From: Opitutaceae bacterium
GTDB lineage: Bacteria; Verrucomicrobiota; Verrucomicrobiia; Opitutales; Opitutaceae
Direction: 5' to 3'
Length of the DNA: 14,353 bases
NCBI GenBank assembly: GCA_031272375.1
Contig: JAISTY010000064.1
Span: forward strand, 1 to 14,353
Under the pieces are notes generated by a model. The model was not told where the DNA came from and did no database searches. It saw only the letters and a program-made list of their open reading frames with translations. Positions within the stretch are counted from its first letter, which is position 1; the number at the start of each line of letters is the position of its first letter. A program made the translations under genes and the position numbers. Below are positions 364 through 13,939 of this stretch, one piece after another.

Positions 364-1623
364 TCAGATTTCGTAGGGCGGGAGGGCTTTTTCGGTGGGC
401 ACCTTTTCCAGGCGGACGTAGACGGGGAGGCCGTTCTCGTGGGGGACGGGGGTCTCGCCTTGGATCAGGGGGAGGGCGTAGCGGAGGTATTGGTGGTTCA
501 TGCTGACGCCGTCCTCGTTGATCCATTCGCGGGGGAGTTTTTTGACGCCGTTGGCGATGTCGCCGAGGGCGGCGAGGCCGGTTTCGCAGGTGTAGTGGTC
601 TTTGTCGCCGCGCAGGAGGGTGACCATTTTGCCGCTTTCGCCGGCGATGGCGGCTTTGACGGCGGCTTGTCCGGCGAGGAACGACTCGTCGGCGTCGGTT
701 TTGGAGCCGGCGTGGGCGGCGGCGCGCTGCGGGTGGCCGAGTTTGGCGGTGCGCACCTTGAGGTCGGGCAGTTTTTCGTTGAGGAGGGCCTGGAGGTAAT
801 CGGCGGCGCCGCCGAGCTGGGCGTGGCCGAAGGCGTCGGTTTTCTCCGCGGCGGCGACGTAGTTGCCGTCAACGTCAACGAGGCCCTCGCCGACGACGAT
901 GAGGCAGTATTTTTCGCGTTTGAGGACGCGTTGGACGTCCTCGGTGAATTTGTCCGGGGAGAAGGGGACTTCGGGGAGGCAGATGATGTGCGGGGGGTCG
1001 TGGGGGTGGTCGCGGCGTTTGGCGAGGGAGGCGCCGGCGGCGATCCAGCCGGCGTTGCGGCCCATGACCTCGACGATGGAGACGAGGTCGTTGCGGCCCA
1101 TGGCCTCGCTGTCGCAGGCGAGTTCGCGGACGATGGTGGAGATGTATTTGATGACGGAGCCGTAGCCGGGGCAGTGGTCGGTGACGGGGAGGTCGTTGTC
1201 CACGGTTTTGGGGATGCCGATGACGCGGAGTTCGTAGCCCTGTTCCTTGGCGAGCTTGTCAATTTTGTCGGCGGTGTCCTGGGAGTCGTTGCCGCCGGCG
1301 TAGAAGAAGTAGCGGATGTTGCGGGCCTTGAAGACCTCGAGGACGCGCTCGAAGTCGGCTTGTTTCTTGAGTTTGTAGCGGCAGGTGCCGAGGGCGGCGC
1401 CGGGGGTGTGGCGGAGGCCGCGGATGGTTTGCTGGGACTCGGCGGCGAGGTCCACGAAGTCCTCGTTGAGGATGCCGAGGACGCCGTTGAGGGTGCCGTA
1501 GATTTCCTCGACGCAGTCGTGGTTGAGGGCTTCGGCGACGACGCCCGCGATGGATGCGTTGATGACGGCGGTGGGGCCGCCGGACTGGCCAATCAGGACG
1601 TTGCCTGCGAGTTCTTCGAACAT
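364..1623 (-). CDS. pfp: Pyrophosphate-type 6-phosphofructokinase
   Basis: 419 aa, full length for the family. It phosphorylates fructose 6-phosphate to fructose 1,6-bisphosphate, probably with pyrophosphate as donor, making the glycolytic step reversible. Visible motifs: the N-terminal phosphate loop GQSGGPTAVINAS (12-24), YAGGNDS (108-114), GIPKTVDND (136-144) with the catalytic Asp and the Lys typical of PPi enzymes, MGRNAGW (187-193), and LGHPQR (295-300). ATP-dependent enzymes have Gly where this protein has Asp113 (GGDG type), and Gly where it has the Lys of PKTVDND; both changes are the known signature of PPi specificity. Asn112 instead of the common Asp in GGDD is slightly unusual. 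The ATG at 1623 is immediately ahead of the fold; no Shine-Dalgarno sequence precedes it. The 148-bp gap to cdd (1624-1771) could hold its own promoter but shows nothing clear. Confidence 0.93.
   Translation of the reverse strand: MFEELAGNVLIGQSGGPTAVINASIAGVVAEALNHDCVEEIYGTLNGVLGILNEDFVDLAAESQQTIRGLRHTPGAALGTCRYKLKKQADFERVLEVFKARNIRYFFYAGGNDSQDTADKIDKLAKEQGYELRVIGIPKTVDNDLPVTDHCPGYGSVIKYISTIVRELACDSEAMGRNDLVSIVEVMGRNAGWIAAGASLAKRRDHPHDPPHIICLPEVPFSPDKFTEDVQRVLKREKYCLIVVGEGLVDVDGNYVAAAEKTDAFGHAQLGGAADYLQALLNEKLPDLKVRTAKLGHPQRAAAHAGSKTDADESFLAGQAAVKAAIAGESGKMVTLLRGDKDHYTCETGLAALGDIANGVKKLPREWINEDGVSMNHQYLRYALPLIQGETPVPHENGLPVYVRLEKVPTEKALPPYEI
661..670 (+). repeat. Dispersed motif GGCGGCTTGT, copy 1 (inside pfp)
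   Basis: Exact 10-mer preceded by C and followed by C. It is antisense to pfp, where it reads GGA CAA GCC GCC in the coding frame (part of AGQAAVKA). One of eight exact copies in the window. Confidence 0.7.
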
Positions 1624-1771
1624 GGTGCTTGTGTGGGTTGGTTTGAGTTGACTGGAAAAAAACAGGGGCGCGGAGGGTGGGGGTCGCGCGGAGGGGCTTG
1701 CAACCGGAAATTTGGGCGGGCGCGGCGACGCGCGGTTTAACTCCTCGGGCTCCGTGTGATGCGCGCGGGTT

Positions 1772-2188
1772 TCAGGCGGCGAGGTTGTCCGGGCCGAAGG
1801 AGTCGGGGAGGAGGCGGTCGAGGGTGGTGTCGAGGCGTCCGGGGCCGTCGCAGAGGGCGATGACGCGGGTGTTGGCGGAGAACTCGCGCAGGACCTGGCG
1901 GCAGGCGCCGCAGGGGGCGGTCGGCGTCGGGGTCGGGGTGTGGATGAGGACGCAGCGGATTGTTTTCGCGCCGGCGGTGACGGCGGCGAAGACGGCGGCG
2001 CGCTCGGCGCAGATGGTCAGTCCGAGGCTGGCGTTCTCGACGTTGCAGCCGGCGTGGACGCGCCCGGTGTCGTCGAGGACGGCGGCGCCGACGCGGAAGC
2101 CGGAATAGGGGGCGCGGGCGTTGCGGGCGGCGTTGCGGGCGGCGGCGGCGAGTTTGCGGAGGGGGAGTTTGGGGGCGGCGGTTTTCAT
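1772..2188 (-). CDS. cdd: Cytidine deaminase
   Basis: 138 aa, the usual size of the homotetrameric zinc enzyme that deaminates cytidine and deoxycytidine to uridine and deoxyuridine in pyrimidine salvage. The signature is complete: YSGFRVGAAV (28-37), AGCNVENAS (46-54, substrate binding), TICAERAAVF (58-67, with zinc ligand Cys60 and catalytic Glu62), PCGACRQVL (92-100, with zinc ligands Cys93 and Cys96), and the C-terminal LLPDSFGP. A small TPTPTPT run (84-90) sits just before the PCGAC motif, where other members usually have a short variable loop. The ATG at 2188 lies 13 nt after the pyrB stop, so the two genes are very probably co-transcribed. The spacer is C-rich with no Shine-Dalgarno sequence and contains most of a dispersed-motif copy. 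Confidence 0.95.
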   Translation of the reverse strand: MKTAAPKLPLRKLAAAARNAARNARAPYSGFRVGAAVLDDTGRVHAGCNVENASLGLTICAERAAVFAAVTAGAKTIRCVLIHTPTPTPTAPCGACRQVLREFSANTRVIALCDGPGRLDTTLDRLLPDSFGPDNLAA

Positions 2189-2192
2189 GGGC

Positions 2193-2202
2193 GGCGGCTT
2201 GT
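2193..2202 (+). repeat. Dispersed motif GGCGGCTTGT, copy 2 (pyrB-cdd junction)
   Basis: Exact copy. On the transcribed strand the pyrB stop runs straight into it: TGACAAGCCGCC, then GCCC and the cdd ATG. The motif therefore makes up most of the 13-nt intergenic spacer. Confidence 0.7.
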
Positions 2203-3137
2203 CAGGGGAGGTTTTTCTTTTGGCCGCCGGCGCAGAGGAAGAGGACGGCCATGCGGACGGCGATGCCGTTGGTGACCTGCTCCAGGATCACGCTGCGGTC
2301 GCCGTCGGCGAGGTCGCTGTCAATTTCGACGCCGCGGTTGATGGGGCCCGGGTGCATGATGATGGCCTTTGGGTGGAGCCAGGAGGCGCGCTCCTTGTTG
2401 AGGCCGAAGAGGGCGGTGTATTCGCCGAGGGAGGGGAACATGCCCGCCGCCTGGCGCTCGTGCTGGATGCGCAGGAGCATGACAACCTCGGCGTCGCGCA
2501 GGGCGCTTTTCAGGTCGTGCGAGACGGTGACGCCGAGGTCCGCGAGCGTTTCGGGGACGAGGGTCGAGGGGCCGACGACCGTGACAGCGGCGCCCATTTT
2601 GGTGAGCGCGTGGATGTTGGAGCGGGCGACGCGGCTGAAGAGGATGTCGCCGAGGATCGCGACCTTGCGTCCGCGCATGGAGCCGAGGCGCTCGCGCATG
2701 GTGAAAGTGTCGAGGAGGCCCTGCGTGGGGTGGGCGTGGGCGCCGTCGCCGGCGTTGATGACGGGAATGCCGAGGATGTTGGAGAGGTAGAGGGGGGCGC
2801 CGGAGGCGGAGTGGCGGATGACAATCATGTCGGCCTTCAAAGCCTGGATGTTCTCGGCGGTGTCGCGGAGGCTTTCGCCCTTGGTGGTGGAGGAGCGGGC
2901 GGCGTCGAAGGCGATGGTGTCGGCGCCGAGGCGTTTGGCGGCCATCTCGAAGGAGATGCGGGTGCGGGTGCTGGGTTCGAGGAAGAGGTTGACGAGGGTT
3001 TTGCCGCGGAGGGCGGAGAGTTTTCCGGGCGGGCCGGACAAGGCCTTCTTGAAGACGCGCGCGGTGGCGTGGATGTGGTCAATTTCGCCGAGGGAAAGCT
3101 CTTCGAGGGCGAGGAGGTGTTTGCGTGTCCAGGTCAT
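2202..3137 (-). CDS. pyrB: Aspartate carbamoyltransferase catalytic subunit
   Basis: 311 aa, normal for the catalytic chain. It condenses carbamoyl phosphate with aspartate to carbamoyl-aspartate, the committed step of de novo pyrimidine synthesis. Motifs in order: FLEPSTRTRISFE (52-64, carbamoyl-phosphate site), SSTTKGESLRDT (82-93, mobile loop with the active-site Lys from the neighbouring subunit), HAHPTQGLLD (134-143), GDILFSRVARSN (163-174), MHPGPINRGVE (261-271), and EQVTNGIAVRMAVL near the end. ATCase is favoured over ornithine carbamoyltransferase by HPTQ plus PGPINRG. No pyrI or pyrC is adjacent; cdd follows instead. The ATG at 3137 comes 24 nt after the stop of the upstream LacI gene, so read-through transcription is possible. 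A pyrimidine-rich leader replaces a Shine-Dalgarno sequence. Confidence 0.95.
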   Translation of the reverse strand: MTWTRKHLLALEELSLGEIDHIHATARVFKKALSGPPGKLSALRGKTLVNLFLEPSTRTRISFEMAAKRLGADTIAFDAARSSTTKGESLRDTAENIQALKADMIVIRHSASGAPLYLSNILGIPVINAGDGAHAHPTQGLLDTFTMRERLGSMRGRKVAILGDILFSRVARSNIHALTKMGAAVTVVGPSTLVPETLADLGVTVSHDLKSALRDAEVVMLLRIQHERQAAGMFPSLGEYTALFGLNKERASWLHPKAIIMHPGPINRGVEIDSDLADGDRSVILEQVTNGIAVRMAVLFLCAGGQKKNLP

Positions 3138-3161
3138 TGCGAAAGGAGGGCGCGGGCGGGT

Positions 3162-4193
3162 TCAGGTGATTTTGCGGACGGATTCGCGGATCACGAGCGT
3201 CGGGGGCAGGATGATGGGGGTTTTGGGCGCGTCCGGGCAGGGTTCCAGCCGCCCGAGGAGCAGGCGGACGGCGGCGACGCCCATGTCCGCCACCGGCTGG
3301 GCGACGGTTGTCAGCGGCGGGGAAAGCTGCCGCAGGTAGGGGAGGTCGTCGTAGGCGACGAGCGAGACGTCGTCCGGCACGCGAAGTCCGGCCTCGGAGA
3401 GGGCGCGGAGGGCGCCGAGGGCGAGGAGGTTGCTCGTCGCGAAAAGCGCGGTGAAGCCGGGTGATTCGAGCAGGAGGTGTTTGGTGTCGAGGTAGCCGGC
3501 GCGCTCGCCGTAGGAGTCGCCGGCGATGAGCGTGTCGTCGGGGCGGACGCCGTTTTTTTCGAGGGCCGCGAGGTAGCCGGCGACGCGGGCCTTGCCGGGC
3601 GCGCTTTCGCGGATGCCGCGGAGGCAGGCGATGCGGCGGTGCCCGTTTTCGAGGAGGTATTCGGCGGCCATGCGCCCGCCGGCGAGGTTGTCGGAGGTGA
3701 CGCTGGGGAGGGTCGCGCCGGGAAAGACGCGGTCAACGAGGACGACGGGGCGGTTGTCGCGGGCCGTGCCGGAGAAGTCCTCCGGGGAACGCCCGACGGG
3801 GCAGACGATCATGCCGTCAACGCGCCGGTTCCAGAGGAGGGCGACGGCCTGGCGTTCGAGGTCGGCGTTTTCCTCGCTGTCGCAAAGGATGATGGAATAG
3901 CCGCGCGGGCGGGTCTGGCTGACAACCTGCCGCGCGATGCCGGCGAAGAAGGGGTTGGCGATGTCGGGGATGACCAGGCCGATGGTGTGGGTTTTTCTGA
4001 GGCGGAGGCTGCGGGCGATGGGGTTGGGGGTGTAGTTTTCCTTTTTGACCAGTTCGCGGACGCGGGCGGCGGTTCTGTCGCTGATGCGGTATTTCCCGGC
4101 CTGGCCGCTCAGGACACGCGAGATGGTCGTGCAGGAGACCCCCAGTTTTGCGGAGATTTGCTTTAACGACGAAAGTGGGCGGCCCGGGTTCAT
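3162..4193 (-). CDS. LacI-family transcriptional regulator (first)
   Basis: 343 aa from the ATG at 4193. An in-frame ATG at 4271 would add 26 residues before the DNA-binding domain, which is atypical. The N-terminal helix-turn-helix is LKQISAKLGVSCTTISRVLSG (about 10-30), then the hinge region IARSLRLRKTHTIGLVIPDIANPFF (59-83), which leads into a periplasmic-binding-protein-like sensor domain. Recognisable sensor blocks are VDGMIV, the SDNLAGG loop (167-173), GHRRIACLRG (184-193), FATSNLLALG (251-260) and the DDVSLVAYDDLPY block (274-286). Such proteins usually bind a sugar or nucleoside and repress nearby genes. The gene lies between the FGGY kinase (74 bp upstream, same strand) and pyrB (24 bp downstream). 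The kinase is the more plausible target, but a role at pyrB-cdd cannot be excluded. The effector is unknown. Confidence 0.9.
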   Translation of the reverse strand: MNPGRPLSSLKQISAKLGVSCTTISRVLSGQAGKYRISDRTAARVRELVKKENYTPNPIARSLRLRKTHTIGLVIPDIANPFFAGIARQVVSQTRPRGYSIILCDSEENADLERQAVALLWNRRVDGMIVCPVGRSPEDFSGTARDNRPVVLVDRVFPGATLPSVTSDNLAGGRMAAEYLLENGHRRIACLRGIRESAPGKARVAGYLAALEKNGVRPDDTLIAGDSYGERAGYLDTKHLLLESPGFTALFATSNLLALGALRALSEAGLRVPDDVSLVAYDDLPYLRQLSPPLTTVAQPVADMGVAAVRLLLGRLEPCPDAPKTPIILPPTLVIRESVRKIT

Positions 4194-4196
4194 TGT

Positions 4197-4228
4197 GGCG
4201 GCGCGGAGGCAAGGGGCTTCGCGCCGCC
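4197..4228 (-). other. Perfect 9-bp inverted repeat just upstream of the first lacI gene
   Basis: GGCGGCGCG (4197-4205) and CGCGCCGCC (4220-4228) form a 9-bp stem with a 14-nt loop in the 74-bp gap between the kinase stop and the regulator's start. On the transcribed strand it ends only 3 nt before the ATG. No U-tract follows, so it is more likely an RNA structure that affects translation of the regulator, or an operator, than an intrinsic terminator for the kinase. Confidence 0.4.
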
Positions 4229-4267
4229 TTTGGAAGAGAAAAGACGGCGCGCGCGGGGGCGCCGGCC

Positions 4268-5938
4268 TCACGCCGCGGCCATCAGCCGGCGGTAGGCGAG
4301 GAAGTCCTTGTGGAGGCGGTGGAAAACCGCGTGTTTGCGGTCATGGTAGCGGGCGACTTTGCCGCGCGAGGGCGTGATGACGGCGCCGGACTTGTTCATC
4401 GCCCGCATCGCCGCGAAAATGTCCGCGTGGCGTCCGGCGGCGACGGCGCCGAGGACGGCGGAGCCGAGCAGCACGGCCTCCGGCTCGGCGGGCAGCACGA
4501 TGCGGCAACCGGTGATGTCCGCGTGCTCGCGCAGGAACACGGGGTTTTTCGTGCCGCCGCCGCAGGCGAGGACGGTCTTGATGGCGTAGCCGCGGCGGTT
4601 CAGCTCCGAGATGATGTGCCGCGTGCCGTGGGCGACGGCCTGGATGGCCGCGAGATATTGCAGCGCGAGGTCGTCCGCGGTGGCCGAGAGGGAGAGGCCC
4701 GCGACGGTCCCTTTGAGCGTCGGGTCGGCGCGTGGGGAGCGGTTGCCATGGAAATCGGGCTGGATGTGGAGGTCTCGCGTCAGTTCGGCGGGGTGGGCGG
4801 CCTTGCGCTGGCGCGCAAGCGCGTCGAGGCGGGCGTTGAGAAGCTCGTAGAGGGTTCTGCCGGAGGCGGCGGCCTCCTTCGCGAGGGGGATGGAGGCGGC
4901 GTGGGAGTGGATGATGTGGTCAATGAGCGCGCCCGTCGCGGACTGTCCGCCCTCGGTGAGCCAGAGGCCGGGGATCATCGCGGAGAAATACGGCCCCCAG
5001 ATGCCGCGGATGAAAAGCGGCTCCGGCGAGACGGCCATGTGGCAGCTCGACGTGCCGCCGATGAGCGCGAGGCGCGAGGGCAGGGCGGCCGCCGCCGGCG
5101 CCCTTCCCCCGACGGGCGCGCCGAGCAGACCGAGGCCGCCGGCGTGGGCGTCAATAATGCCCACGCCCACGGGCGTTCCGGGGCGAAGGCCGAGTTCCGC
5201 GGCGGAGCGGGGCGACAAGCCGCCGCCGACAGGCTCCCCCATCGGGCGGACGCGCGCGCCGATTTTCCCGAAATTATCCGCCGCCAGCTCCCCGAGGCCG
5301 ATCCGGTCGAAGTAGGACTTGTCCCAACCTTTGCCGTCGTTGCCGCGGTGCCCGAGGTAGGTCCACTTGCAGACGGTCGTGCAAAGGGAGCGGGTGTCGT
5401 CGCCCGTGGCGCGGTAGGTGAGGAAGTCGGCGAGGTCGAGGAAACGGACTGTTTCGCGCCAGGAGCCGGGGAGGTTTTCCTTTATCCAGAGAAGCTTGGG
5501 CGTCTCCATTTCCGGGGAAATGACGCCGCCGACGTAGCGGAGGACGGGGTGGCGGGTGGCGTTGACGCGCCCCGCCTGCGGGATGGCGCGGTGGTCCATC
5601 CAGACAATCACGTTTTGCGCGGGCGCGCCCGTCGTGGAGAGCGAGACCGGCCTGTCGTCCGCGCCGAGCGCAACGAGCGAGCTGGTGGCGTCGAAACCGA
5701 CGCCCGCGACGGCGGCGGACGGGGCGGCGGCCTGTTTGAGGGCGTTTTGGACGGCGTGGCAGCAGGCGGCCCAGATGTCGTCGGAGGACTGCTCGACGTG
5801 GTCGGGCGCGGGCTTCCACATTTGGATGGGCTTGCTGGCGGAGCCGAGGAGTTTGCCGGAGGCGTCGAAAACGCCGGCGCGGGCCGAGCCGGTGCCGACG
5901 TCAACGCCGATGAAGAGCGGGGAGGAGCGGGTGGTCAT
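4268..5938 (-). CDS. FGGY-family carbohydrate kinase (D-ribulokinase/ribitol-kinase-like)
   Basis: 556 aa from the ATG at 5938. A longer ATG at 6082 would put 48 basic, low-complexity residues through the promoter region and is rejected. Two actin-like FGGY domains phosphorylate a sugar or polyol with ATP in the cytoplasm. Seen: [15 protein letters not shown] (11-25, phosphate loop 1), [11 protein letters not shown] (81-91), [10 protein letters not shown] (109-118, substrate contacts), [11 protein letters not shown] (260-270, with catalytic Asp263), LIGGTSSCH (292-300), [15 protein letters not shown] (327-341), and [11 protein letters not shown] (458-468, adenine site). The DATSSLV, WMDHRA and IIDAHAGG blocks match the pentulose-kinase branch that includes human FGGY and bacterial ribitol kinases rather than xylulokinase or glycerol kinase. 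The exact substrate is inferred. It is transcribed divergently from a LacI-type regulator, its probable repressor, and followed by a second one. Confidence 0.9.
5215..5224 (-). repeat. Dispersed motif GGCGGCTTGT, copy 3 (inside the kinase gene)
   Basis: Appears as ACAAGCCGCC on the plus strand. On the kinase coding strand it reads GGC GGC TTG TCG (GGLS, about residues 239-242), a frame different from the copies in pfp and pdxJ. Confidence 0.7.
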
Positions 5939-5970
5939 GGGAGGGCTGGATGGAGGATTTTTTCGAGGCG

Positions 5971-5982
5971 GGAAACGTTTTC
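5971..5982. promoter_or_regulatory. Candidate LacI-family operator (cre-like)
   Basis: GGAAACGTTTTC contains the perfect 8-bp palindrome AAACGTTT centred on CG, the centre found in most LacI/GalR-family operators; the wider site matches in 5 of 6 paired positions. It lies 33 nt upstream of the kinase ATG, well placed to block transcription. Confidence 0.45.
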
Positions 5983-6009
5983 GCGGGTTCGCGGGCGAAG
6001 TGAAGTTTT

Positions 6010-6023
6010 GTTTTTGCAAAAAC
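6010..6023. promoter_or_regulatory. Candidate operator: perfect 14-bp palindrome
   Basis: GTTTTTGCAAAAAC is identical to its reverse complement over all 14 bases. It sits between the divergent kinase and lacI genes, 52 nt before the regulator's ATG. Its AT content stands out in this genome, so a chance palindrome of this length is unlikely. Binding by the adjacent LacI protein is inferred. Confidence 0.5.
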
Positions 6024-6024
6024 C

Positions 6025-6034
6025 GGCGGCTTGT
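6025..6034 (+). repeat. Dispersed motif GGCGGCTTGT, copy 4 (divergent promoter)
   Basis: Exact copy preceded by C, starting one base after the 14-bp palindrome and 42 nt ahead of the lacI start codon. It is intergenic, so no protein constraint explains it. Confidence 0.65.
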
Positions 6035-6075
6035 TTTGCGTGCCCCGCCAAAACGCCAGCAACCCCGTTCCCGCC

Positions 6076-7125
6076 ATGCCAAAACAAACCGCCTCCGCCG
6101 AACGTGTCACCGTGCGCCACATCGCCGAGCTGGCGGGGGTCTCCGTCGGCTCGGTCTCGACCGTCCTGAACAACCACCAGGTGGAGCGGCGCATCTCCGA
6201 GGGAACCGTTAAACGCATCCGCGAGGCGGCCGCGAAACTCGGCTATCTGCCGAACATCGGCGCCCGCCGCCTCCGCAGCAAAGGCGGCGGCAAACCGCCC
6301 GTCGTGCTCGCCATCGTCACCAGCTACGAGGCCCCCATCCCCTTGATCAGCCACTTCATCACCGCCCTCCGCCGCCGCGTGAAGGACCACGAGCAGCACA
6401 GCCAATACCTGTTCTCGGTCATGATAGAGATGTTCTCGGCGGGAAGACTGCGTGAGACGCAGGGGCTTCTCTCCGGCGACCTCTTCAACGCCGCCATCAT
6501 CCTCAACACCACCCCGGAGGACGACCAGTTCCTCCGCCACAACCGCGTCGCCTGCCCCGTCGTGCTCGTCAACCGCGCCATCGCCGGCTACCCCTCCGTC
6601 ACCGAGGACATGGCCGGCGGCGCCAAGGCCGCCGACATCCTCATCCGGGGAAAATCCAAACGCCTCGTCGTCCTGCACGGCAGCCCCCTCACGCAAATCA
6701 CCAAGGGCCGTGTGGACAGCTTCATGCGCCGCGCCGCCGAAACCCTCGGCTGCCCCGCCGTCGAGGCCGTCGCCGACGACCTTTCCGAGGACGCCGGCTA
6801 CCGCGCCGTCAAAAGCCTCCTCAAAAAAGGCTCCGAGGCCGACGGTCTTTACGCCGTCTCCGACCCGCTCGCGCTGGGCGCCTACCGCGCCATCCGCGAA
6901 ACGGGACGCTCCATCCCCAATGGCATCTCCGTCGTCGGCACGGGCGACTACGACATTTCCGCGTTCTTCGACCCGCCGCTGACCTGCGTGGGCGTCTCCC
7001 ACAAGGAGCTGGCCGAGGCCGCCGTCGCCTCCCTCCTGCGGCAGCTTGGGCGCGGCGCGGCGGCGGAGACCGGCAAGGTCGTCCCCGTGCGGGAACTCGC
7101 GCGCGCCTCCGTCCGCAAGGCGTGA
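6076..7125 (+). CDS. LacI-family transcriptional regulator (second), divergent from the kinase
   Basis: 349 aa from the ATG at 6076. A TTG at 6031 is in frame but would begin inside the dispersed motif and add 15 residues before the DNA-binding domain. Helix-turn-helix: [20 protein letters not shown] (11-30) followed by LNN. The hinge follows at [20 protein letters not shown] (47-66), and the ligand domain fills the rest. That domain is divergent: the usual sugar-contact sequences are replaced by [14 protein letters not shown] (82-95) and ILNTTPEDD (142-150), while [25 protein letters not shown] (162-186) and [16 protein letters not shown] (258-273) keep the family pattern. It probably represses the divergent FGGY kinase and itself through the palindromes in 5939-6075. 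It differs clearly from the first LacI protein, so the two are not a recent duplication. Confidence 0.9.
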
Positions 7126-7185
7126 CGCCCGCGCGGAGCCGTTCCCGTTTCAACAACAACAACAACGCCGCGCGCCGCGCGTCAC
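7122..7185. terminator. Possible bidirectional terminator between converging genes
   Basis: The stop codons of the converging genes lie in matching arms, GTGACG (7122-7127) and CGTCAC (7180-7185). GC-rich complementary stretches (CCGCGCGG type) sit inside them, and a (CAA)5C tract at 7151-7166 falls in the loop. The stem is imperfect and lacks a clean U-tract on either strand, so function is uncertain. Confidence 0.3.
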
Positions 7186-7919
7186 CCCGCCTGCGGCGGC
7201 TTGTCCCCGCCCGCCGTTTTCCGCCCGCCGCGCTCGCGCAGGATCTGCTCGAACCCGAGACCGCTGAGTTTCGCGACGCCCCCGAACAGCCGCCAGAGCG
7301 CGAACAGCGCCATGCCCGTCGAGGGCGGCACGATGACCAGCCACCCCATCCAGAACATCCGCGAAAGCTGCCCGTTGAACGCCTCCGAGCCGGCGGGCGC
7401 CGTCAGCAGCAGCCGCGCGAGCCAGAAGTTCAGCGCCGCGCTCAACGCGAACGACCCCACCAACCACAGCCCCGATCGCGTGAGCAGCCGCTCGAAATCA
7501 CCGCGCCGCCCCCGCGCGTCGAGGGCCGCGTTGACCCGCTCCGTGTCTATCAGCTGCCCGTTGAAAAACAGCGTCCGCATCAGCGAGCGCTCGGACCGCA
7601 GCGTGAGCAGCAGCGCGACGGCGATGAGCGCGGGAATGCTCGCCTCCTTCACCGCGAACCAGAACACGTCCGTCTTCAGCGCGCCCAGCACCCCTGTCAG
7701 CAAAACCCCCGCCGCGCCGATGACCGCGATGACGCTCGCCTCGCGCCGCCGCGCCAGATCCCAGATGAAATAGCCGACGGGAAACGCCAGCGCCACGAAC
7801 ATCGCCGGCAGCGGGCCGAGACGCTCCGGCGCGCTCAGCTTGGAAAGCGCCAGCGCGGGCGCGGCGATGTTGAGCGCGAGGTTCGCAAAAAGATTCTCTC
7901 CCGGTTTTTCGGCGGACAT
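7182..7919 (-). CDS. VC0807-type polytopic membrane protein
   Basis: 245 aa from the ATG at 7919. The same frame stays open far upstream, but only as antisense of pdxJ. Six hydrophobic segments are visible at about 11-27, 37-54, 62-80, 90-107, 150-170 and 187-213, with a charged cytoplasmic-type loop at 108-148 (contains RTLFFNGQLIDTERVNAAL). The blocks LALNIAAPALALSKLS, FPVGYFIWDLARRR and KEASIPALIAVALLLTLRS match what I recall of the VC0807 family, whose function is not established. It has no obvious operon partner: it converges on the second lacI gene and diverges from pdxJ. The C-terminal GGDKPPQAG is partly encoded by a dispersed-motif copy and is probably not conserved. Family assignment is from memory of the pattern. 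Confidence 0.75.
   Translation of the reverse strand: MSAEKPGENLFANLALNIAAPALALSKLSAPERLGPLPAMFVALAFPVGYFIWDLARRREASVIAVIGAAGVLLTGVLGALKTDVFWFAVKEASIPALIAVALLLTLRSERSLMRTLFFNGQLIDTERVNAALDARGRRGDFERLLTRSGLWLVGSFALSAALNFWLARLLLTAPAGSEAFNGQLSRMFWMGWLVIVPPSTGMALFALWRLFGGVAKLSGLGFEQILRERGGRKTAGGDKPPQAG
7195..7204 (+). repeat. Dispersed motif GGCGGCTTGT, copy 5 (3' end of the VC0807-type gene)
   Basis: Exact copy flanked by C on both sides, 10 nt inside the stop codon. On the coding strand it reads GAC AAG CCG CCG (DKPP), in the disordered C-terminal tail. Confidence 0.7.
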
Positions 7920-7949
7920 GCCGCCGGAGTCAGCCGCCAACCCGCCGCC

Positions 7950-7968
7950 GGGAAAAGCGGATTTTCCC
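7950..7968. promoter_or_regulatory. Inverted repeat in the VC0807-pdxJ divergent gap
   Basis: GGGAAAA (7950-7956) and TTTTCCC (7962-7968) form a perfect 7-bp inverted repeat with a 5-nt spacer. It is in the 117-bp gap between two divergent genes, 30 nt upstream of the membrane-protein start. It could be an operator or part of a promoter. No -10 or -35 box is clear. Confidence 0.35.
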
Positions 7969-7985
7969 GCGCGCCTATCGGCGAC

Positions 7986-7995
7986 GGCGGCTTGT
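7986..7995 (+). repeat. Dispersed motif GGCGGCTTGT, copy 6 (upstream of pdxJ)
   Basis: Exact copy preceded by C, 41 nt upstream of the pdxJ ATG in the divergent gap. Non-coding on both strands. Confidence 0.65.
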
Positions 7996-8036
7996 TTGCG
8001 CTTCCGCTTTCCCGCGCCGCCGGTTTGCTGCGGGGC

Positions 8037-8789
8037 ATGATTTTGCTCGGCGTGAACATAGACCACTCCGCGACCCTCCGGCAGGCCCGCTACCGCGGCT
8101 ACCCCTCCACCACCGGCGGCCCCGTCGAACCCGACCCCGTGCTGCTCGCCGCCCTCGCCGAGCAGGCGGGCGCCGACGGCATCACCATCCACCTCCGCGA
8201 GGACCGCCGCCATATCCAGGAACGCGACGTCTGGCGCCTCCGCGAATCCTGCCGCACACGCGTCAACCTCGAGATGGCCTGCGACGACGCCATGCTCGCC
8301 CTCGCCCTCCGCCTGAAGCCCGACTCCGTCTGCCTCGTCCCCGAAAACCGCGACGAAATCTCCACCGAGGGCGGGCTGGACGTCGCCGGCCGCCCGGAAC
8401 GCGTCGCCGCCTGCGTCGCCGCCCTGTCCGCCGCGGGCATCACCGCGAGCCTGTTCATTGACCCCGACGCCGCCCAGGTCGGGGCGGCGGCGGCTTGTCG
8501 CGCGCCTTTTGTCGAGCTGCACACGGGCGCCTGGGCCAATGCCTGGCACACCCCGCGCCGCGCGGAGGAGTTCGCCCGCCTCGCGCAAGGCGCCGCGCTC
8601 GCGGCGAAGGCCGGCCTCTCGGTCAACGCCGGCCACGGCATCAACTACCAAAACATCCGCGACATCCGCGGCATCCCCGGCCTCCACGAGTTGAACATCG
8701 GCCACAGCATCCTTTGCCGCGCCCTCTTCGTTGGCATCGGCCCCGCCGTCCGCGAAATGAAACGCCTCATGAACGGGACGCCCCTGTGA
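8037..8789 (+). CDS. pdxJ: Pyridoxine 5'-phosphate synthase
   Basis: 250 aa, normal length for PdxJ. It closes the pyridoxine ring from deoxyxylulose 5-phosphate and 3-amino-2-oxopropyl phosphate in DXP-dependent vitamin B6 synthesis. The (beta/alpha)8 barrel motifs are all present: LGVNIDHSATLRQAR (4-18), DGITIHLREDRRHIQ (47-61), NLEMA (77-81), VPENRDEISTEGGLDV (101-116), FVELHTGAWA (158-167), LSVNAGHGINYQNI (194-207), and HELNIGHSI (217-225). Ser11 replaces the common Ile in NIDHIATLR, and the loop at about 19-34 is longer than in E. coli PdxJ. Residues 153-155 read ACR, where E. coli has EVG just before APF; this falls on a dispersed-motif copy. The ATG at 8037 opens directly on the first barrel strand. 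acpS overlaps by 4 nt. Confidence 0.95.
   Translation: MILLGVNIDHSATLRQARYRGYPSTTGGPVEPDPVLLAALAEQAGADGITIHLREDRRHIQERDVWRLRESCRTRVNLEMACDDAMLALALRLKPDSVCLVPENRDEISTEGGLDVAGRPERVAACVAALSAAGITASLFIDPDAAQVGAAAACRAPFVELHTGAWANAWHTPRRAEEFARLAQGAALAAKAGLSVNAGHGINYQNIRDIRGIPGLHELNIGHSILCRALFVGIGPAVREMKRLMNGTPL
8489..8498 (+). repeat. Dispersed motif GGCGGCTTGT, copy 7 (inside pdxJ)
   Basis: Exact copy flanked by C on both sides. In frame it gives GCG GCT TGT (Ala152-Ala153-Cys154), using T-ending codons that are rare in this gene. It sits beside a normally well-conserved VGAPF-type block. Confidence 0.7.
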
Positions 8790-9202
8790 ACCCCGCGAAC
8801 GACAACCCGCCGCCGGCCGCTCCGGGACTCGGCGCCGACATCGTGGACATCGCCCGCGTCGAGCGCGCCATCGAACGCCACGGGGAGCGTTTCCTCGAAT
8901 ACGTCTTCACGGAGGAGGAGCGCGCGTATTGCGCGGCCATGCGCCGCCCCGGACAGCATTACGCGGCCCGCTTCGCCGCGAAGGAGGCTGTCGCCAAATG
9001 CCTCGGCACCGGCATCGGCCACGGCCTTTCCTGGAAATCCGTCTCCGTCCGCAACACCCCCGAAGGCGCCCCGCTGGCCGTCCTCGACGCCCCCGCCGCC
9101 GCCCTCCTGCGCGCCTCCGGCGGCTCCGGCCTGCGCCTGACCCTCTCGCACACAAAAACGGTTGCTTTGGCGGTCGCCCTTATCATTCAACCCCGCCCCT
9201 GA
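8786..9202 (+). CDS. acpS: Holo-[acyl-carrier-protein] synthase
   Basis: 138 aa. It transfers 4'-phosphopantetheine from CoA to the serine of acyl carrier protein, activating fatty acid synthesis. Key elements: LGADIVDIARVERAIERHG (15-33, with Mg-binding Asp18), FLEYVFTEEERAYC (36-49), HYAARFAAKEAVAKCLGTGIG (58-78, with metal-binding Glu67), and LTLSHTKTVALAVALI (118-133). The start is the GTG at 8786, whose last two bases and the next base form the pdxJ stop (GTGA overlap). This gives a 14-residue Asn/Pro/Ala-rich leader before the conserved core. The pdxJ-acpS pairing is widespread in bacteria. nnr follows after 4 nt, so pdxJ, acpS and nnr form a translationally coupled unit. Confidence 0.94.
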   Translation: MNPANDNPPPAAPGLGADIVDIARVERAIERHGERFLEYVFTEEERAYCAAMRRPGQHYAARFAAKEAVAKCLGTGIGHGLSWKSVSVRNTPEGAPLAVLDAPAAALLRASGGSGLRLTLSHTKTVALAVALIIQPRP

Positions 9203-9206
9203 CTCC

Positions 9207-10763
9207 ATGACTCCGCTCCCCAACACCCATCCGGTCCTTTCCTGCGAGGAGGCCATCGCTTTTGAGAAGGCCCTCTTCGGCGGCGACGCCGGCGCGGAAT
9301 GGAACGCCATGCGGGCCGCCGGCCTCGCCGTGGCGGAGGCCGTCCTTGAGGACTTCCGCGAAATCGGCGGCTTCCCGGCGGACGGGCGCGTCCTCGTCCT
9401 CTGCGGCAAAGGCCGCAACGGCGGCGACGCCCTCCTCGCCGCCCGCGCCCTCCTCGAAAAATTCCCGAAGGCCTCCGCGGACGTCCGCTTCGTCCATGGG
9501 CAGAAAGCCCTGCGCCCGCCCGCCGCCCGCGCCGCGGAACTCCTCTGGGCCTGCCGCGACCGCGTCCAGACCCTCCACGGCCCGCCCGCCGGCCCCTACG
9601 CCGTCTGCCTCGACGGCATCTTCGGCCACTCCTTCCGCGGCAAACTCGACGAGCCGTCCGCCCGCGCCATCGAGGAAACGCGCCGCGCCGAAATCTCCCT
9701 GCGCGCCGCCGTTGACCTGCCCAGCGGACTGGACGACCCCGGCGCCTTCCGGGCCGATTTCTCCTACGCCACCGGCGTCGTCAAAAAACCCCTCCTTTAC
9801 CTGCCCGCCGCCGGGCGCCCCCGCTACCTCGACCTCGGCTTCTTCAGGGACCTCCCCAAAACCCGCGCCCTCCGCGCCTCCTGGAAAGCCCCCTGCCGCG
9901 TCCTCACAACCGGACTGCTCGCCGACCTCGCCGCCTTCCGCCGCCCCACCCTCCACAAATACGCCGCGGGGCACGTGTTCGTCATCGGCGGCTCGCGCAA
10001 CCTCCCCGGCGCCGTGCTCATGAGCGTCCGCGCCGCCCTCAAAAGCGGCGCCGGCCTCGTGAGCGCCTTCGTCCCGAAATCCCTCGTCCCCGCCTTCGCC
10101 GCCCGCCTGCCGGAGGCCATGTGGATCGGCTGGCCGGAACTCCCCGACGGCAGCTTGTCCCCGGAGGGCTTCCCCCGCCTGCGCGAACGCCTCCCGGCCG
10201 CCAACGCCCTCGTCATCGGCCCCGGCATGGGCCGCGACCCCGAAACCCTCACCCTCGCCCGCGACATCATCGCCAGCTCCCCAGTGCCCCTCGTCATTGA
10301 CGCCGACGCCCTCCAGTCCACCACCGTGCACGCCGGGCGCGCCCCGCGCATCCTCACGCCCCACACGGGCGAGTTCGCCCGCCTCGCCCAGGGCATGTCC
10401 TTTGAGAAATTCGCCGAGCAGACCGGCGGCTTCATCACCACCGTCCTCAAAGGCCCCGTCACCCGCGTCGCCGCCAACGACGCCGTCTATCACAACTTCT
10501 CCGGCGGCCCCGTGCTCGCCCGCGCCGGCAGCGGCGACCTCCTCGCCGGCCTCGTCGGCGGCCTCCTCGCCCAATGCCCCGCCGAACCCCTCTCCGCCGC
10601 CGTCCGCGGCGTCCTCTGGCACGGCCTCGCCGCCGACGCCCTCGCCCGCGAACGCGGACAAACCGCCGTCATGGCCACCGAACTCCTGGAGTTCCTCCCC
10701 GCGATCCTCCGCCGCCACAACCTCCGCAACCACGAGGCCGCCGCCCGCCAAAAACAGGGTTGA
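9207..10763 (+). CDS. nnr: Bifunctional NAD(P)H-hydrate epimerase / ADP-dependent NAD(P)H-hydrate dehydratase
   Basis: 518 aa, the normal size of the fused YjeF/Nnr protein that repairs damaged (hydrated) NADH and NADPH. The N-terminal epimerase (about 10-215) has LVLCGKGRNGGDAL (63-76), CLDGIFGHSFRG (134-145), DLPSGLDDPG (170-179) and DLGF (209-212). The C-terminal ribokinase-like dehydratase (about 230-505) has HKYAAGHVFVIGGS (250-263), ALKSGAGLV (277-285), LVIGPGMGRDPET (335-347), VIDADAL (363-369), LTPHTGEFARL (383-393), VLKGPVTRVA (413-422), and AGSGDLLAGLVGGLLA (440-455, with the catalytic Asp). Small deviations are GRNGGD for GNNGGD and ARAGSGD for TGGSGD or TGGTGD. The ATG at 9207 is chosen over an in-frame TTG at 9162 because it follows the acpS stop and opens just before the domain. 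Placement next to acpS is common. Confidence 0.94.
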   Translation: MTPLPNTHPVLSCEEAIAFEKALFGGDAGAEWNAMRAAGLAVAEAVLEDFREIGGFPADGRVLVLCGKGRNGGDALLAARALLEKFPKASADVRFVHGQKALRPPAARAAELLWACRDRVQTLHGPPAGPYAVCLDGIFGHSFRGKLDEPSARAIEETRRAEISLRAAVDLPSGLDDPGAFRADFSYATGVVKKPLLYLPAAGRPRYLDLGFFRDLPKTRALRASWKAPCRVLTTGLLADLAAFRRPTLHKYAAGHVFVIGGSRNLPGAVLMSVRAALKSGAGLVSAFVPKSLVPAFAARLPEAMWIGWPELPDGSLSPEGFPRLRERLPAANALVIGPGMGRDPETLTLARDIIASSPVPLVIDADALQSTTVHAGRAPRILTPHTGEFARLAQGMSFEKFAEQTGGFITTVLKGPVTRVAANDAVYHNFSGGPVLARAGSGDLLAGLVGGLLAQCPAEPLSAAVRGVLWHGLAADALARERGQTAVMATELLEFLPAILRRHNLRNHEAAARQKQG

Positions 10764-10808
10764 TCCCGCCTCCCCCCGCCCCTCACCCTCCGCGCCCCCT
10801 TGAAAACC

Positions 10809-10885
10809 GGACGCTTAGCTCAGTTGGTTAGAGCACATCCTTCACACGGATGGGGTCACTGGTTCGAGTCCAGTAGCGTCCACCA
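10809..10885 (+). tRNA. tRNA-Val (anticodon CAC), CCA end encoded
   Basis: A complete cloverleaf folds by eye. The acceptor stem is GGACGCT with AGCGTCC (10809-10815 and 10875-10881), the D arm is GCTC/GAGC around AGTTGGTTA, and the anticodon stem is CATCC/GGATG around loop TTCACAC, with anticodon CAC at 10843-10845. The variable loop is GGGTC, the T arm is ACTGG/CCAGT with loop TTCGAGT, the discriminator is A, and CCA is encoded at 10883-10885. It decodes GUG. It sits 45 nt after nnr and 18 nt before murI on the same strand. Confidence 0.97.
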
Positions 10886-10903
10886 GCCCGCCCCGGAAAA
10901 CCC

Positions 10904-11554
10904 ATGAGACTCGGCGTCTTCGACAGCGGCATCGGCGGCGAGGCCATCGCCCGCGCCCTCCGCGACGCCTTCCCCGGCGCCGAAATCCTCTCCGCCAACG
11001 ACCGCGCCGGCCTCCCCTACGGCGACAAGCCGCCTCCCGAAATCATCCGCCGCGCCAACGCCGCCATCCGCCCGCTCCTCGACGCCCGCTGCGACATCAT
11101 CGTCCTCGCCTGCAACACCGCCACCGCCGTCGCCATTGACACCCTCCGCGCCCTCCACCCCGCGCAGAAATTCATCGGCATCGAACCCATGCTCAAACCC
11201 GCCGCCGCCCTCACCCGCTCCGGCGTCGTCGCCGTCTGCGCCACCCGCGCCACCCTCTCCAGCGCGCGCTACCGCCGCCTCCTCGAAACCCACGCCGGAA
11301 ACCTCCGCGTCCTCGAACCCGACTGCTCCGACTGGGCCTCCCTCATCGAAAACAACCGCCTCAACCGCGCCCGCCTCCGCGACACCATCGAGACCGTCTG
11401 CCGCGAGGGCGCCGACGTCATCGTCCTCGGCTGCACCCATTACCATTGGATCAAAAAAAACATCTCCGCCCTGGCCGCCGGGCGCGCCCGCGTCATCGAG
11501 CCTTCCGGCGCCATCGCCCGCCGCGTCCGCGAACTCCTCGCCACCTCCCCCTGA
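10904..11554 (+). CDS. murI: Glutamate racemase, short form
   Basis: 216 aa, clearly shorter than typical MurI (about 255-285 aa). It interconverts L- and D-glutamate for peptidoglycan. Seen: GVFDSGIGGEAIARAL (4-19, with Asp7 and Ser8), LPYGDKPPPEI (37-47), IIVLACNTATAVA (65-77, first catalytic Cys70), FIGIEPMLKPA (90-100), the VVAVCATRATLSS block (108-120), and VIVLGCTHYHW (172-182, second catalytic Cys177 and His179). Both thiols are present, so activity is likely. The usual GDTARxPYG block reads ANDRAGLPYG, and CTHYPLL reads CTHYHWI. The shortening comes from compact loops and the C-terminus, not from a frameshift. DKPP is encoded by a dispersed-motif copy. The ATG is 18 nt past the tRNA. 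Confidence 0.85.
   Translation: MRLGVFDSGIGGEAIARALRDAFPGAEILSANDRAGLPYGDKPPPEIIRRANAAIRPLLDARCDIIVLACNTATAVAIDTLRALHPAQKFIGIEPMLKPAAALTRSGVVAVCATRATLSSARYRRLLETHAGNLRVLEPDCSDWASLIENNRLNRARLRDTIETVCREGADVIVLGCTHYHWIKKNISALAAGRARVIEPSGAIARRVRELLATSP
11025..11034 (-). repeat. Dispersed motif GGCGGCTTGT, copy 8 (inside murI)
   Basis: Appears as ACAAGCCGCC on the plus strand, where it reads GAC AAG CCG CCT (DKPP, residues 41-44). It is one of two copies on the minus strand. Confidence 0.7.
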
Positions 11555-12524: not shown

Positions 12525-13412
12525 GTGCAAACTCCTCCAACCAACGCCCTCCAGCCCCCCGAACCCGGACACTCCCTCTGGCACGACACCTGGCTCCGCC
12601 TCCGCAAAAACAAACTCGCCCTCCTCGGCGCCCTTTCCCTCCTCCTCGTCGCCGCCGTCTGCCTCCTCGTCCCCGCCGTCAGCCCCTACGGCTACGAAAC
12701 CCAAAACCTCGACGCCACCTTCTCCCCTCCCTCCGCCGCCCACTGGCTCGGCACCGACGAACTCGGCCGCGACCTCCTCACACGCATCGCCACCGGCGGC
12801 AGGTTGTCCATCGCCATCGGCCTCGTCGCCACCGCCGTCGCCCTCCTCATCGGCGTCTCCTACGGCGCCGTCGCCGGCTTCTTCGGCGGCAAACTCGACG
12901 CCGCCATGATGCGCCTCGTGGACATCCTCTACTCCCTCCCCTTCACCATCTTCGTCATCCTCCTCGTCGCCATCTTCGGACGCGACATCTACCTCCTCTT
13001 CGTCGCCATCGGCGCCGTCGAATGGCTCACCATGGCCCGCATCGTCCGCGGCCAGATCAACTCCCTCAAACGCTCCGAATACGTTGACGCCGCCCGCACC
13101 CTCGGCTTCGGCAAAACCCGCATCATCGTCCGCCACATCCTCCCCAACATCCTCGGCCCCGTCATCGTCTACACCACCCTCACCATCCCCGCCGTCATGC
13201 TCCTCGAGGCCTTCCTCTCCTTCCTCGGCCTCGGCGTCCAGCCACCCATGAGCTCCTGGGGCCTCCTCATCAAAAACGGCGCCGACTCCATGGAGGAATA
13301 CCCCTGGCTCCTCGTCTTCCCCTGCCTCTTCTTCTCCATCACCCTCTTCTCCCTCAACTTCCTCGGCGACGGCCTCCGCGACGCCCTCGACGTCCGCGCC
13401 TCCAAGGACTGA
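12525..13412 (+). CDS. oppC: ABC transporter permease, OppC/DppC type
   Basis: 295 aa. Partner of the upstream OppB-type permease, together forming the membrane channel. Seen: the N-terminal cytoplasmic segment LWHDTWLRLRKNKLALLGA (18-36) and first helix, HWLGTDELGRDLLTRI (73-88, diagnostic of OppC), ALLIGVSYGAVAGFFGGKLD (106-125), VDILYSLPF (132-140), the EAA-type segment YVDAARTLGFGKTRIIVRHILPN (186-208), and FLSFLGLGVQPPMSSWG (230-246). The start is the GTG at 12525, 10 nt past the oppB stop. The reading frame stays open upstream through oppB, but that part is out-of-frame shadow. The end shows normal NFLGDGLRDALDVR. No oppD/F or oppA follows; a pseudopilin gene comes next. Confidence 0.9.
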   Translation: MQTPPTNALQPPEPGHSLWHDTWLRLRKNKLALLGALSLLLVAAVCLLVPAVSPYGYETQNLDATFSPPSAAHWLGTDELGRDLLTRIATGGRLSIAIGLVATAVALLIGVSYGAVAGFFGGKLDAAMMRLVDILYSLPFTIFVILLVAIFGRDIYLLFVAIGAVEWLTMARIVRGQINSLKRSEYVDAARTLGFGKTRIIVRHILPNILGPVIVYTTLTIPAVMLLEAFLSFLGLGVQPPMSSWGLLIKNGADSMEEYPWLLVFPCLFFSITLFSLNFLGDGLRDALDVRASKD

Positions 13413-13474: not shown

Positions 13475-13939
13475 ATGAAAAAAACCTCCCGCCAACCCGC
13501 CCGCTCCCTCCGCCGCGCCTCCCGCGCCTTCACCTTGATGGAAATCCTCATCGTCGTCGCCATCATCGGCCTCCTCGTCGGCGTCGCCGTCACCAACCTC
13601 GACTCCGTCCTCGGCTCCAACGAAAAGAAAATCGCCTCCCTCTTCGTCAACCAAAGCATCAAGCCCGCCATGACCCAATACCGCATACAAATGGGCGACT
13701 ACCCCTCCACCGCCGAGGGCCTCCAAGCCCTCATCTCCGCCCCCGCCGGCAAAGAGGCCTCCTGGTCCGGCCCCTACCTCGAAAAACTCCCACTCGACCC
13801 CTGGAAACAACCCTACGTCTACCAGTCCCCGGGCACCCATAACAAAAACAGCTACGACCTCTTCTCAAAAGGCCCCGACAAAACCGAGGGCACCGCCGAC
13901 GACATCGGCAACTGGGAAACCACCGCCCCCGCCCAATGA
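13475..13939 (+). CDS. gspG: Type II secretion major pseudopilin GspG
   Basis: 154 aa. Major subunit of the type II secretion pseudopilus, made as a prepilin in the inner membrane. A basic 18-residue leader ends ...RASRA, then the mature N-terminus FTLMEILIVVAIIGLLVGV (19-37) with Glu23 as the conserved fifth residue. The residue before the cleavage site is Ala, not the usual Gly. The C-terminal part is textbook GspG: YPSTAEGLQAL (76-86), WSGPYLEKLPLDPWKQPYVY (97-116), and the calcium-site loop FSKGPDKTEGTADDIGNW (130-147). The ATG at 13475 gives a leader of normal length; a TTG at 13424 would add 17 residues. It is 62 nt past oppC, and a second pseudopilin starts 25 nt after its stop. Confidence 0.93.
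   Translation: MKKTSRQPARSLRRASRAFTLMEILIVVAIIGLLVGVAVTNLDSVLGSNEKKIASLFVNQSIKPAMTQYRIQMGDYPSTAEGLQALISAPAGKEASWSGPYLEKLPLDPWKQPYVYQSPGTHNKNSYDLFSKGPDKTEGTADDIGNWETTAPAQ

Follow-up and report, generated by a model that had tools for sequence, protein, structure and literature searches.

A dispersed two-block motif in the genome of an Opitutaceae bacterium, a candidate self-specific DNA uptake signal

A stretch of 14,353 nucleotides from an Opitutaceae bacterium (Verrucomicrobiota; GenBank assembly GCA_031272375.1, contig JAISTY010000064.1), which is contig 131 of the assembly and is referred to here as the window, includes 11 sites of a short two-block motif that recurs about once per kilobase in the genome it comes from. 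The motif has the form CGGC-[GGC/AGC/GGG/AGG/GAC/AAC/GCC/ACC]-TTGT(C/t), with nine fixed and three restricted bases, and probably serves this species as a self-specific DNA uptake signal, a reading drawn from one incomplete genome (1,461,740 bases; 242 contigs; completeness 67.6 %, contamination 0.23 %). The genome-wide motif itself is real and strong, and no report of it was met in the open-licence full texts searched. The genome size is estimated at approximately 2.2 Mb (1.46 Mb at 67.6 % completeness), below that of most of the relatives searched.

A preliminary description of the window had reported a dispersed 12-mer with an exact 10-mer core, GGCGGCTTGT, and all eight copies of the core were located, at 661, 2193, 6025, 7195, 7986 and 8489 on the plus strand and at 5215–5224 and 11025–11034 on the minus strand, against a mean of 0.06 and a maximum of 1 in 200 dinucleotide shuffles of the window. 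The further details given there, namely a C before the core in seven of the eight copies and after it in six of eight, near-copies at 1354, 10149 and 11871 (one mismatch each to the 10-mer) and a GC content of about 70 % (68.8 % as measured), were also recovered. The dispersed 12-mer, though real, is just the most frequent version of a wider motif with two blocks, and the preliminary description understated what is there.

Over the whole assembly, GGCGGCTTGT is present in 511 copies, in balance between the strands (264 and 247), compared with 21 for the pattern read backwards. The figures are 390 and 5 (reversed control) for CGGCGGCTTGTC, and 983 and 13 (control) for the degenerate CGGCRVSTTGTC, with 449 and 534 of the latter on the two strands of contigs whose orientation is arbitrary. 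Other analyses used a sample of 60 contigs (59 whole and one cut at 20 kb; stretches L081–L140) which, together with the window, comprises 432,932 bases. Six of the 60 sampled stretches consist entirely of N (15,881 bases), and the remaining 417,051 bases have a GC content of 66.7 %; the all-N length was included in the Markov, triplet, frame, strand and first gap analyses and excluded from the codon and density analyses. The 12-mer CGGCGGCTTGTC occurs 136 times in this sample where an order-3 Markov model predicts 1.0, so the Markov comparison suggested in the preliminary description gave a count far from the expected one.

When each base of CGGCGGCTTGTC was changed singly, the first four and last five bases proved to be largely fixed (the last two least), and the central three vary. 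The spaced form CGGC-N3-TTGTC (CGGCNNNTTGTC) occurs 333 times in the sample, and eight middles make up 321 of these: GGC (136), AGC (46), GGG (43), AGG (26), GAC (26), AAC (17), ACC (14) and GCC (13), with approximately 0.2–1.2 expected for each. Only two copies with GAG were found, and among the 333 occurrences there were none with AAG, GCG or ACG. Read from the opposite strand the permitted middles are GCY, CCY, GTY and GGY, and because they are restricted and yet spread over the frames, the limit sits in the DNA. Allowing TTGTT as well as TTGTC gives 382 sites (0.916 per kb of the 417 kb of unmasked sample), compared with eight for the reversed control. At the nine fixed positions, perfect copies (321, all eight middles) exceed one-off copies (201, of which 61 are TTGTT) despite there being 216 possible one-off words. 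The motif is not palindromic. Two G are favoured upstream of it and the flanks are GGC-rich; when 30 bases on each side were examined, no other conserved flank was seen beyond approximately 14 bases, and there were no AT-rich tracts. A hairpin-like variant, CGGCAGCTTGCC, which breaks the TTGTC block and is possibly a different element, was found 16 times in the sample (0.3 expected).

The sites are evenly spread, with Poisson-like counts over the 55 unmasked sequences (chi-square 56.6, 54 degrees of freedom) and one unmasked sequence without the motif (0.59 expected). Using our own simple gene caller, which identified 352 genes in the sample, 308 of the 382 sites fall within genes, nine lie across a gene edge and 65 are intergenic; non-coding DNA is preferred, at 1.20 sites per kb versus 0.85 per kb in coding DNA. 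Genic sites occupy all six frames (antisense 104, 67 and 14; sense 78, 33 and 12) and, hence, the copies cannot be explained by a protein motif repeated in a single frame, as had been concluded for the window.

Within genes, the motif overrides codon choice. DKLP is written in motif codons in 20 of 21 peptides where codon use predicts 0.93, and similar excesses were seen for DKPP (12 of 13, 0.76 expected), DNLP (11 of 12, 0.86 expected), DNPP (7 of 8, 0.95 expected) and RRLV (13 of 21, 0.04 expected). All 15 peptide and codon pairs tested were above expectation, the weakest being QVA (11 of 38 versus 5.8). The motif contains 78 of the 840 TTG codons and 104 of the 1139 CAA codons.

The origin of the copies was addressed by aligning genes that contain the motif with those of relatives, a check that had also been suggested in the preliminary description. 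A match in 2.7 Mb of relatives' sequence, some of it from other phyla, was available for 97 of the 308 coding sites, in 55 genes (61 sites in an earlier round). Of these 97 sites, 67 are ungapped, six lie in an insertion, four are at a deletion and 20 are outside the alignment, whereas random positions in the same genes were ungapped in 82 %, in an insertion in 4.8 %, at a deletion in 2.3 % and outside the alignment in 11 % of cases. Insertions therefore account for 7.8 % of the 77 aligned sites compared with 5.4 % in the control. Identity to the relative is 40 % at motif residues and 51 % at control positions. Given the 67 ungapped sites out of 77 and the lower identity at motif residues, most of the copies that can be judged arose by substitution in permissive places and not by insertion. 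A gap test of the same type showed that the uptake signal sequences (USSs) of Haemophilus influenzae are not insertions (Redfield and colleagues, PMC1626085).

A partial set of competence and pilus genes was found. It includes a ComEC domain on contig 144 that scores above its cut-off (the full-length ComEC/Rec2 model is below its own), DprA on contig 154, also above cut-off, and PilT on contig 33, at 453 bits against a cut-off of 319. Contigs 120 and 148 encode PilB/GspE-like ATPases that fall below the full-length cut-offs, the second of them extending past the end of its locus. Secretin domains above cut-off are present on contigs 9 and 121; that on contig 9 is nearest to the type IV pilus family of Amuc_1098 and that on contig 121 to GspD, in both cases with the full-length model below cut-off. 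There are also four pilin-type N-termini in the genome, with pilin domains above cut-off, and none of the four could be assigned as a receptor. Some of these genes are cut by contig ends. The preliminary description had proposed to look for comEC, pilQ and minor pilins, among others. In this one genome, the set permits but does not prove competence. Two of the four pilin-type N-termini lie in the window, at its right end: 13475–13939 (a GspG pseudopilin gene) and 14142–14216 (a frame cut by the window end).

From these features we infer that the motif is a signal for uptake. A putative surface receptor, most likely a minor pilin within the type IV pilus/competence machinery, would recognise both fixed blocks when double-stranded DNA is free outside the cell, and fragments bearing the motif would be taken up and recombined more often than others. 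A copy generated by a chance point mutation would then be over-represented in the transforming DNA and would spread (molecular drive), and near-perfect copies would come to fill the genome at all places where they are compatible with protein and regulatory function. Receptor-driven uptake bias together with drive through transformation would explain at one time the density, the strandless use, the over-strong consensus, the substitution origin and the permissive placement of the sites. A minor pilin has been predicted as the USS receptor by modelling (PMC12616744).

The likeness to DNA uptake sequences (DUSs) noted in the preliminary description is favoured by approximately one site per kb, the even spread over contigs, the use of all frames and the lack of an overall strand bias, and also by the excess of perfect over one-off copies and by substitution rather than insertion at permissive positions. 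Density, absence of an orientation preference, a strong consensus and substitution origin are the traits described for USSs and DUSs (PMC1626085 and PMC5031613). The USSs of the Pasteurellaceae (AAGTGCGGT, Hin type, and ACAAGCGGT, Apl type) share with the motif a density of approximately 1 per kb, no overall orientation bias, a preference for non-coding DNA combined with many genic copies, perfect copies exceeding one-off copies, and an origin by substitution (PMC1626085). However, the motif differs in its word, in its phylum, in the restricted triplet between the blocks, in the lack of AT-rich flanks and in its occurrence in a single genome among those searched, and its close pairs are head-to-tail where those of USSs are opposed. 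By eye, the reverse complement of the motif, GACAAGCCGCCG, has ACAAGC in common with the Apl type, an overlap that was taken as chance. The DUSs of the Neisseriaceae (ATGCCGTCTGAA and its dialects), which the minor pilin ComP reads, share the 12-mer scale, the very high over-representation, the absence of a flanking motif, hundreds to thousands of copies and the rarity of single deviations (PMC5031613, PMC1626085, PMC3630211). Here too the close pairs of our motif are head-to-tail and not opposed, the word by eye is unlike the DUS consensus, and in contrast to the CTG core of DUSs (PMC3630211), CGGCGGCTTGTC does not contain CTG on either strand. DUS dialects vary among relatives and act as barriers (PMC3630211).

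Sequence-specific uptake was considered in a 2016 review to have evolved convergently in two families, the Neisseriaceae and the Pasteurellaceae (PMC5031613). On balance, we lean towards regarding the motif as a third, independently evolved self-specific uptake signal, and the first in the Verrucomicrobiota, with a new architecture in which two blocks (CGGC and TTGTC) surround a restricted triplet whose latitude gives room for coding. It would be read by a putative receptor and have arisen recently in one lineage with a small genome. If so, such a third origin, in a phylum far removed from the other two, would allow the question of what such systems need to be asked, would open to study the co-origin of receptor and word and the reasons why DNA is tagged in some lineages, and would imply frequent exchange by transformation in this group.

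Several observations weigh against an uptake signal. The motif was not enriched in any of 251 other genomes of the family (at most 10 copies of the 12-mer in each), unlike USSs and DUSs, which are shared within families, though the genus is represented by this one genome in the set. The ComEA-type HHH_3 domain, also among the genes proposed in the preliminary description, was not found in the 67.6 % complete assembly. A restricted but variable triplet is unusual for an uptake sequence, and the spacing, with Poisson counts per contig, is random, whereas a spacing more regular than that, along with opposed close pairs, is reported for USSs and DUSs (PMC1626085). Before same-strand neighbours are merged, the two strands are unevenly used within contigs (chi-square 45.7, 26 contigs). 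Among alignments of at least 50 % identity, three of 34 sites lie in insertions (8.8 % versus 2.3 % in the control), a weak excess, and the 20 of 97 sites beyond the alignment (11 % of controls) cannot be judged. Finally, pairs of sites no more than 60 nucleotides apart are head-to-tail in 39 cases and inverted in eight, and 12 of the direct pairs are spaced by exactly 15 nucleotides. Part of the head-to-tail excess may follow from frame preference inside one gene, and a few close pairs are plain tandem repeats (L097 and L139), but these do not account for the 15-nucleotide runs with differing middles. Four-copy head-to-tail runs, mostly with 15 or 18 nucleotide spacing and differing middles, are found at L088:8235–8309, L089:447–503 and L098:1036–1095.

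Chromosome-organisation and recombination signals are short words with a polarity that follows the replichore, and those such as Chi and the FtsK orienting polar sequences (KOPS) are found genome-wide, including inside genes. A signal of this kind, read by a translocase, a condensin or partition protein or a RecBCD/AddAB-like enzyme and selected chromosome-wide, would account for the even spread through the genome, for the DNA-level constraint in all frames and for the uneven strand use just noted, and was held in the preliminary description to be as possible as an uptake sequence. We consider it less likely, and indeed doubtful. Merging same-strand neighbours no more than 200 nucleotides apart brings the strands close to balance (chi-square 27.8, 23 contigs), and the strand of the motif has no clear link to the GC skew of the contig (120 sites on the G-rich strand versus 99 on the other in contigs of at least 8 kb). 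The word has nine fixed and three restricted bases, and perfect copies exceed one-off copies. Compared with Chi and KOPS, the motif is longer, far more over-represented and without clear strand polarity.

Another form of self-tag or DNA-processing bias, such as selective packaging by gene transfer agents, exchange of DNA by conjugation or in vesicles, or a mark of self read by a defence system, appears improbable. The same origin by point mutation and the same strong consensus would be expected wherever tagged homologous DNA is exchanged with a bias. However, we know of no self-tag system of this sort with a motif at such a density, and with a partial pilus/competence set present, uptake is the simpler route.

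A mobile or self-copying short repeat inserting into genes and gaps, like repetitive extragenic palindromic (REP) elements with their REP-associated tyrosine transposases (RAYTs) or miniature inverted-repeat transposable elements, had likewise been held equally possible but is poorly supported by the alignments, and we regard it as very unlikely. The genome does include a RAYT-like gene (in L106, below the family cut-off), REP elements are also short, dispersed, GC-rich words, and the 12 direct pairs at exactly 15 nucleotides and the three insertions in 34 sites at high identity could be read in this way. In contrast to REP elements, the motif is not palindromic, not limited to gaps between genes and mostly not inserted, 67 of 77 aligned sites being ungapped and the insertion rate (7.8 %) near that of the control (5.4 %); there is no conserved flank past approximately 14 bases, and the sole unmasked stretch without the motif is the one that has the transposase-like gene. 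Mobile insertion was thus not supported by the gap analysis with 61 or with 97 sites, though the weak excess at high identity remains. An origin in composition, in codon usage, in a protein motif that recurs or in an artefact of assembly, to which the GC-rich genome, the GGC-rich flanks and some runs within single genes might point, is scarcely credible and, provided that the assembly itself is right, was rejected on the shuffle and Markov counts (136 versus 1.0), the reversed control (8 versus 382), the use of six frames, the override of codon choice, the even spread over contigs, the sites in ungapped alignments with relatives, and a screen that detected 104 enriched words here versus 6, 0 and 0 in three relatives.

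That screen, conducted de novo, looked for enriched dispersed 10-mers, including any other words (dialects) that relatives might use, and the ten listed for our sample are all parts of the motif; the relatives' sequences, screened identically, amounted to 400, 400 and 753 kb. In a weaker screen, among the best 45 of 80 sequences of at least 9 kb (our own included), most top places were taken by our own stretches, but the power of this screen is low as some of them score no better than relatives. Rank 3 was a contig named uncultured Arenicella (L044; CAGGATGACT, 10 copies, six distinct contexts) and rank 7 an Opitutaceae contig (L061) with the palindrome ACGCCGGCGT (8 counts over both strands). 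Overall, no enrichment was found in 870 other genomes, in overlapping sets, each of which was searched with one or more patterns of the motif. The 37 relatives in one set have at most 30 copies of the 10-mer each, 386 genomes from the phylum have at most eight copies of the 12-mer each, and 371 genomes from the order have at most 52 degenerate matches, the highest value coming from a 5.5 Mb genome where the control gave 46. Seven loci from viral contigs scanned for paired sites have zero to two strict-motif sites each and none is enriched.

The open-licence full texts searched, mostly judged by title, contained no report tying uptake sequences to the Verrucomicrobia or Verrucomicrobiota, and none of such a motif in Opitutaceae with competence and pili. 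Papers containing the letters of the motif appeared, by title and among the matches listed, to be unrelated; one Neisseria paper includes GGCGGCTTG within a strain construct. Uptake sequences are not dealt with in the part drawn on here of a paper on Verrucomicrobia that covers competence and type IV pili.

The sites in the window, with genes assigned by Pfam where so marked, are as follows.
660–671, plus strand: CGGC-GGC-TTGTC, antisense in a phosphofructokinase-domain gene (364–1623, minus; Pfam), reads GQAAV.
2192–2203, plus strand: CGGC-GGC-TTGTC, between a deaminase-domain gene (1772–2188, minus; Pfam) and a carbamoyltransferase-domain gene (2202–3137, minus; Pfam), with 2 bases shared with the end of the latter.
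3921–3932, minus strand: CGGC-AGG-TTGTC, sense in a LacI-type regulator gene (3162–4193, minus; Pfam), reads RQVV.
5214–5225, minus strand: CGGC-GGC-TTGTC, sense in an FGGY-kinase-domain gene (4268–5938, minus; Pfam), reads GGGLS.
6024–6035, plus strand: CGGC-GGC-TTGTT, between called genes.
7194–7205, plus strand: CGGC-GGC-TTGTC, in a called open reading frame (7182–7919, minus) with no Pfam match and of uncertain coding status.
7985–7996, plus strand: CGGC-GGC-TTGTT, between called genes, upstream of pdxJ.
8488–8499, plus strand: CGGC-GGC-TTGTC, sense in pdxJ (8037–8789, plus), reads AAACR.
8801–8812, minus strand: CGGC-GGG-TTGTC, antisense in an ACPS-domain gene (8786–9202, plus; Pfam), reads DNPP.
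10148–10159, plus strand: CGGC-AGC-TTGTC, sense in an NAD(P)H-hydrate dehydratase-like gene (9207–10763, plus), reads DGSLS.
12797–12808, plus strand: CGGC-AGG-TTGTC, sense in an OppC-like permease gene (12525–13412, plus), reads GGRLS; the best relative has GGRIS with no gap.
11024–11035, minus strand: AGGC-GGC-TTGTC, a one-off copy outside the strict form, in a glutamate racemase-like gene (10904–11554, plus).

The best relatives of the OppC-like protein are mostly from Opitutaceae or Opitutia (Verrucomicrobiota). For one motif-bearing protein, the closest other matches, among the best 120 of at least 8000 scored, are 84 % identical and include named Opitutaceae of the termite gut. On these grounds the family whose 251 other genomes were searched is taken to be the Opitutaceae. 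A tRNA-Val gene (cac) is located at 10809–10885 of the window.

Other repeats were seen in the sample. The transposase-like gene is at L106:965–2008, and AAATAACCTGTCCCT occurs three times nearby (2052–2066, 2091–2105 and 3229–3243); its core, TAACCTGTCCCT, has 14 copies in the sample. At L139:3354–3485 there are tandem 60-bp units, each with TTTTGGA-TGCGGCGACTTGTC or a near version. This tandem repeat, in which the motif is present with the middle GAC, may be a REP-like element in its own right. A second dispersed word, TTGAACAGAAGATAA, is present in 16 copies in the sample, far over expectation, and part of it, TTATCTTCTGTT on the other strand, in 22.

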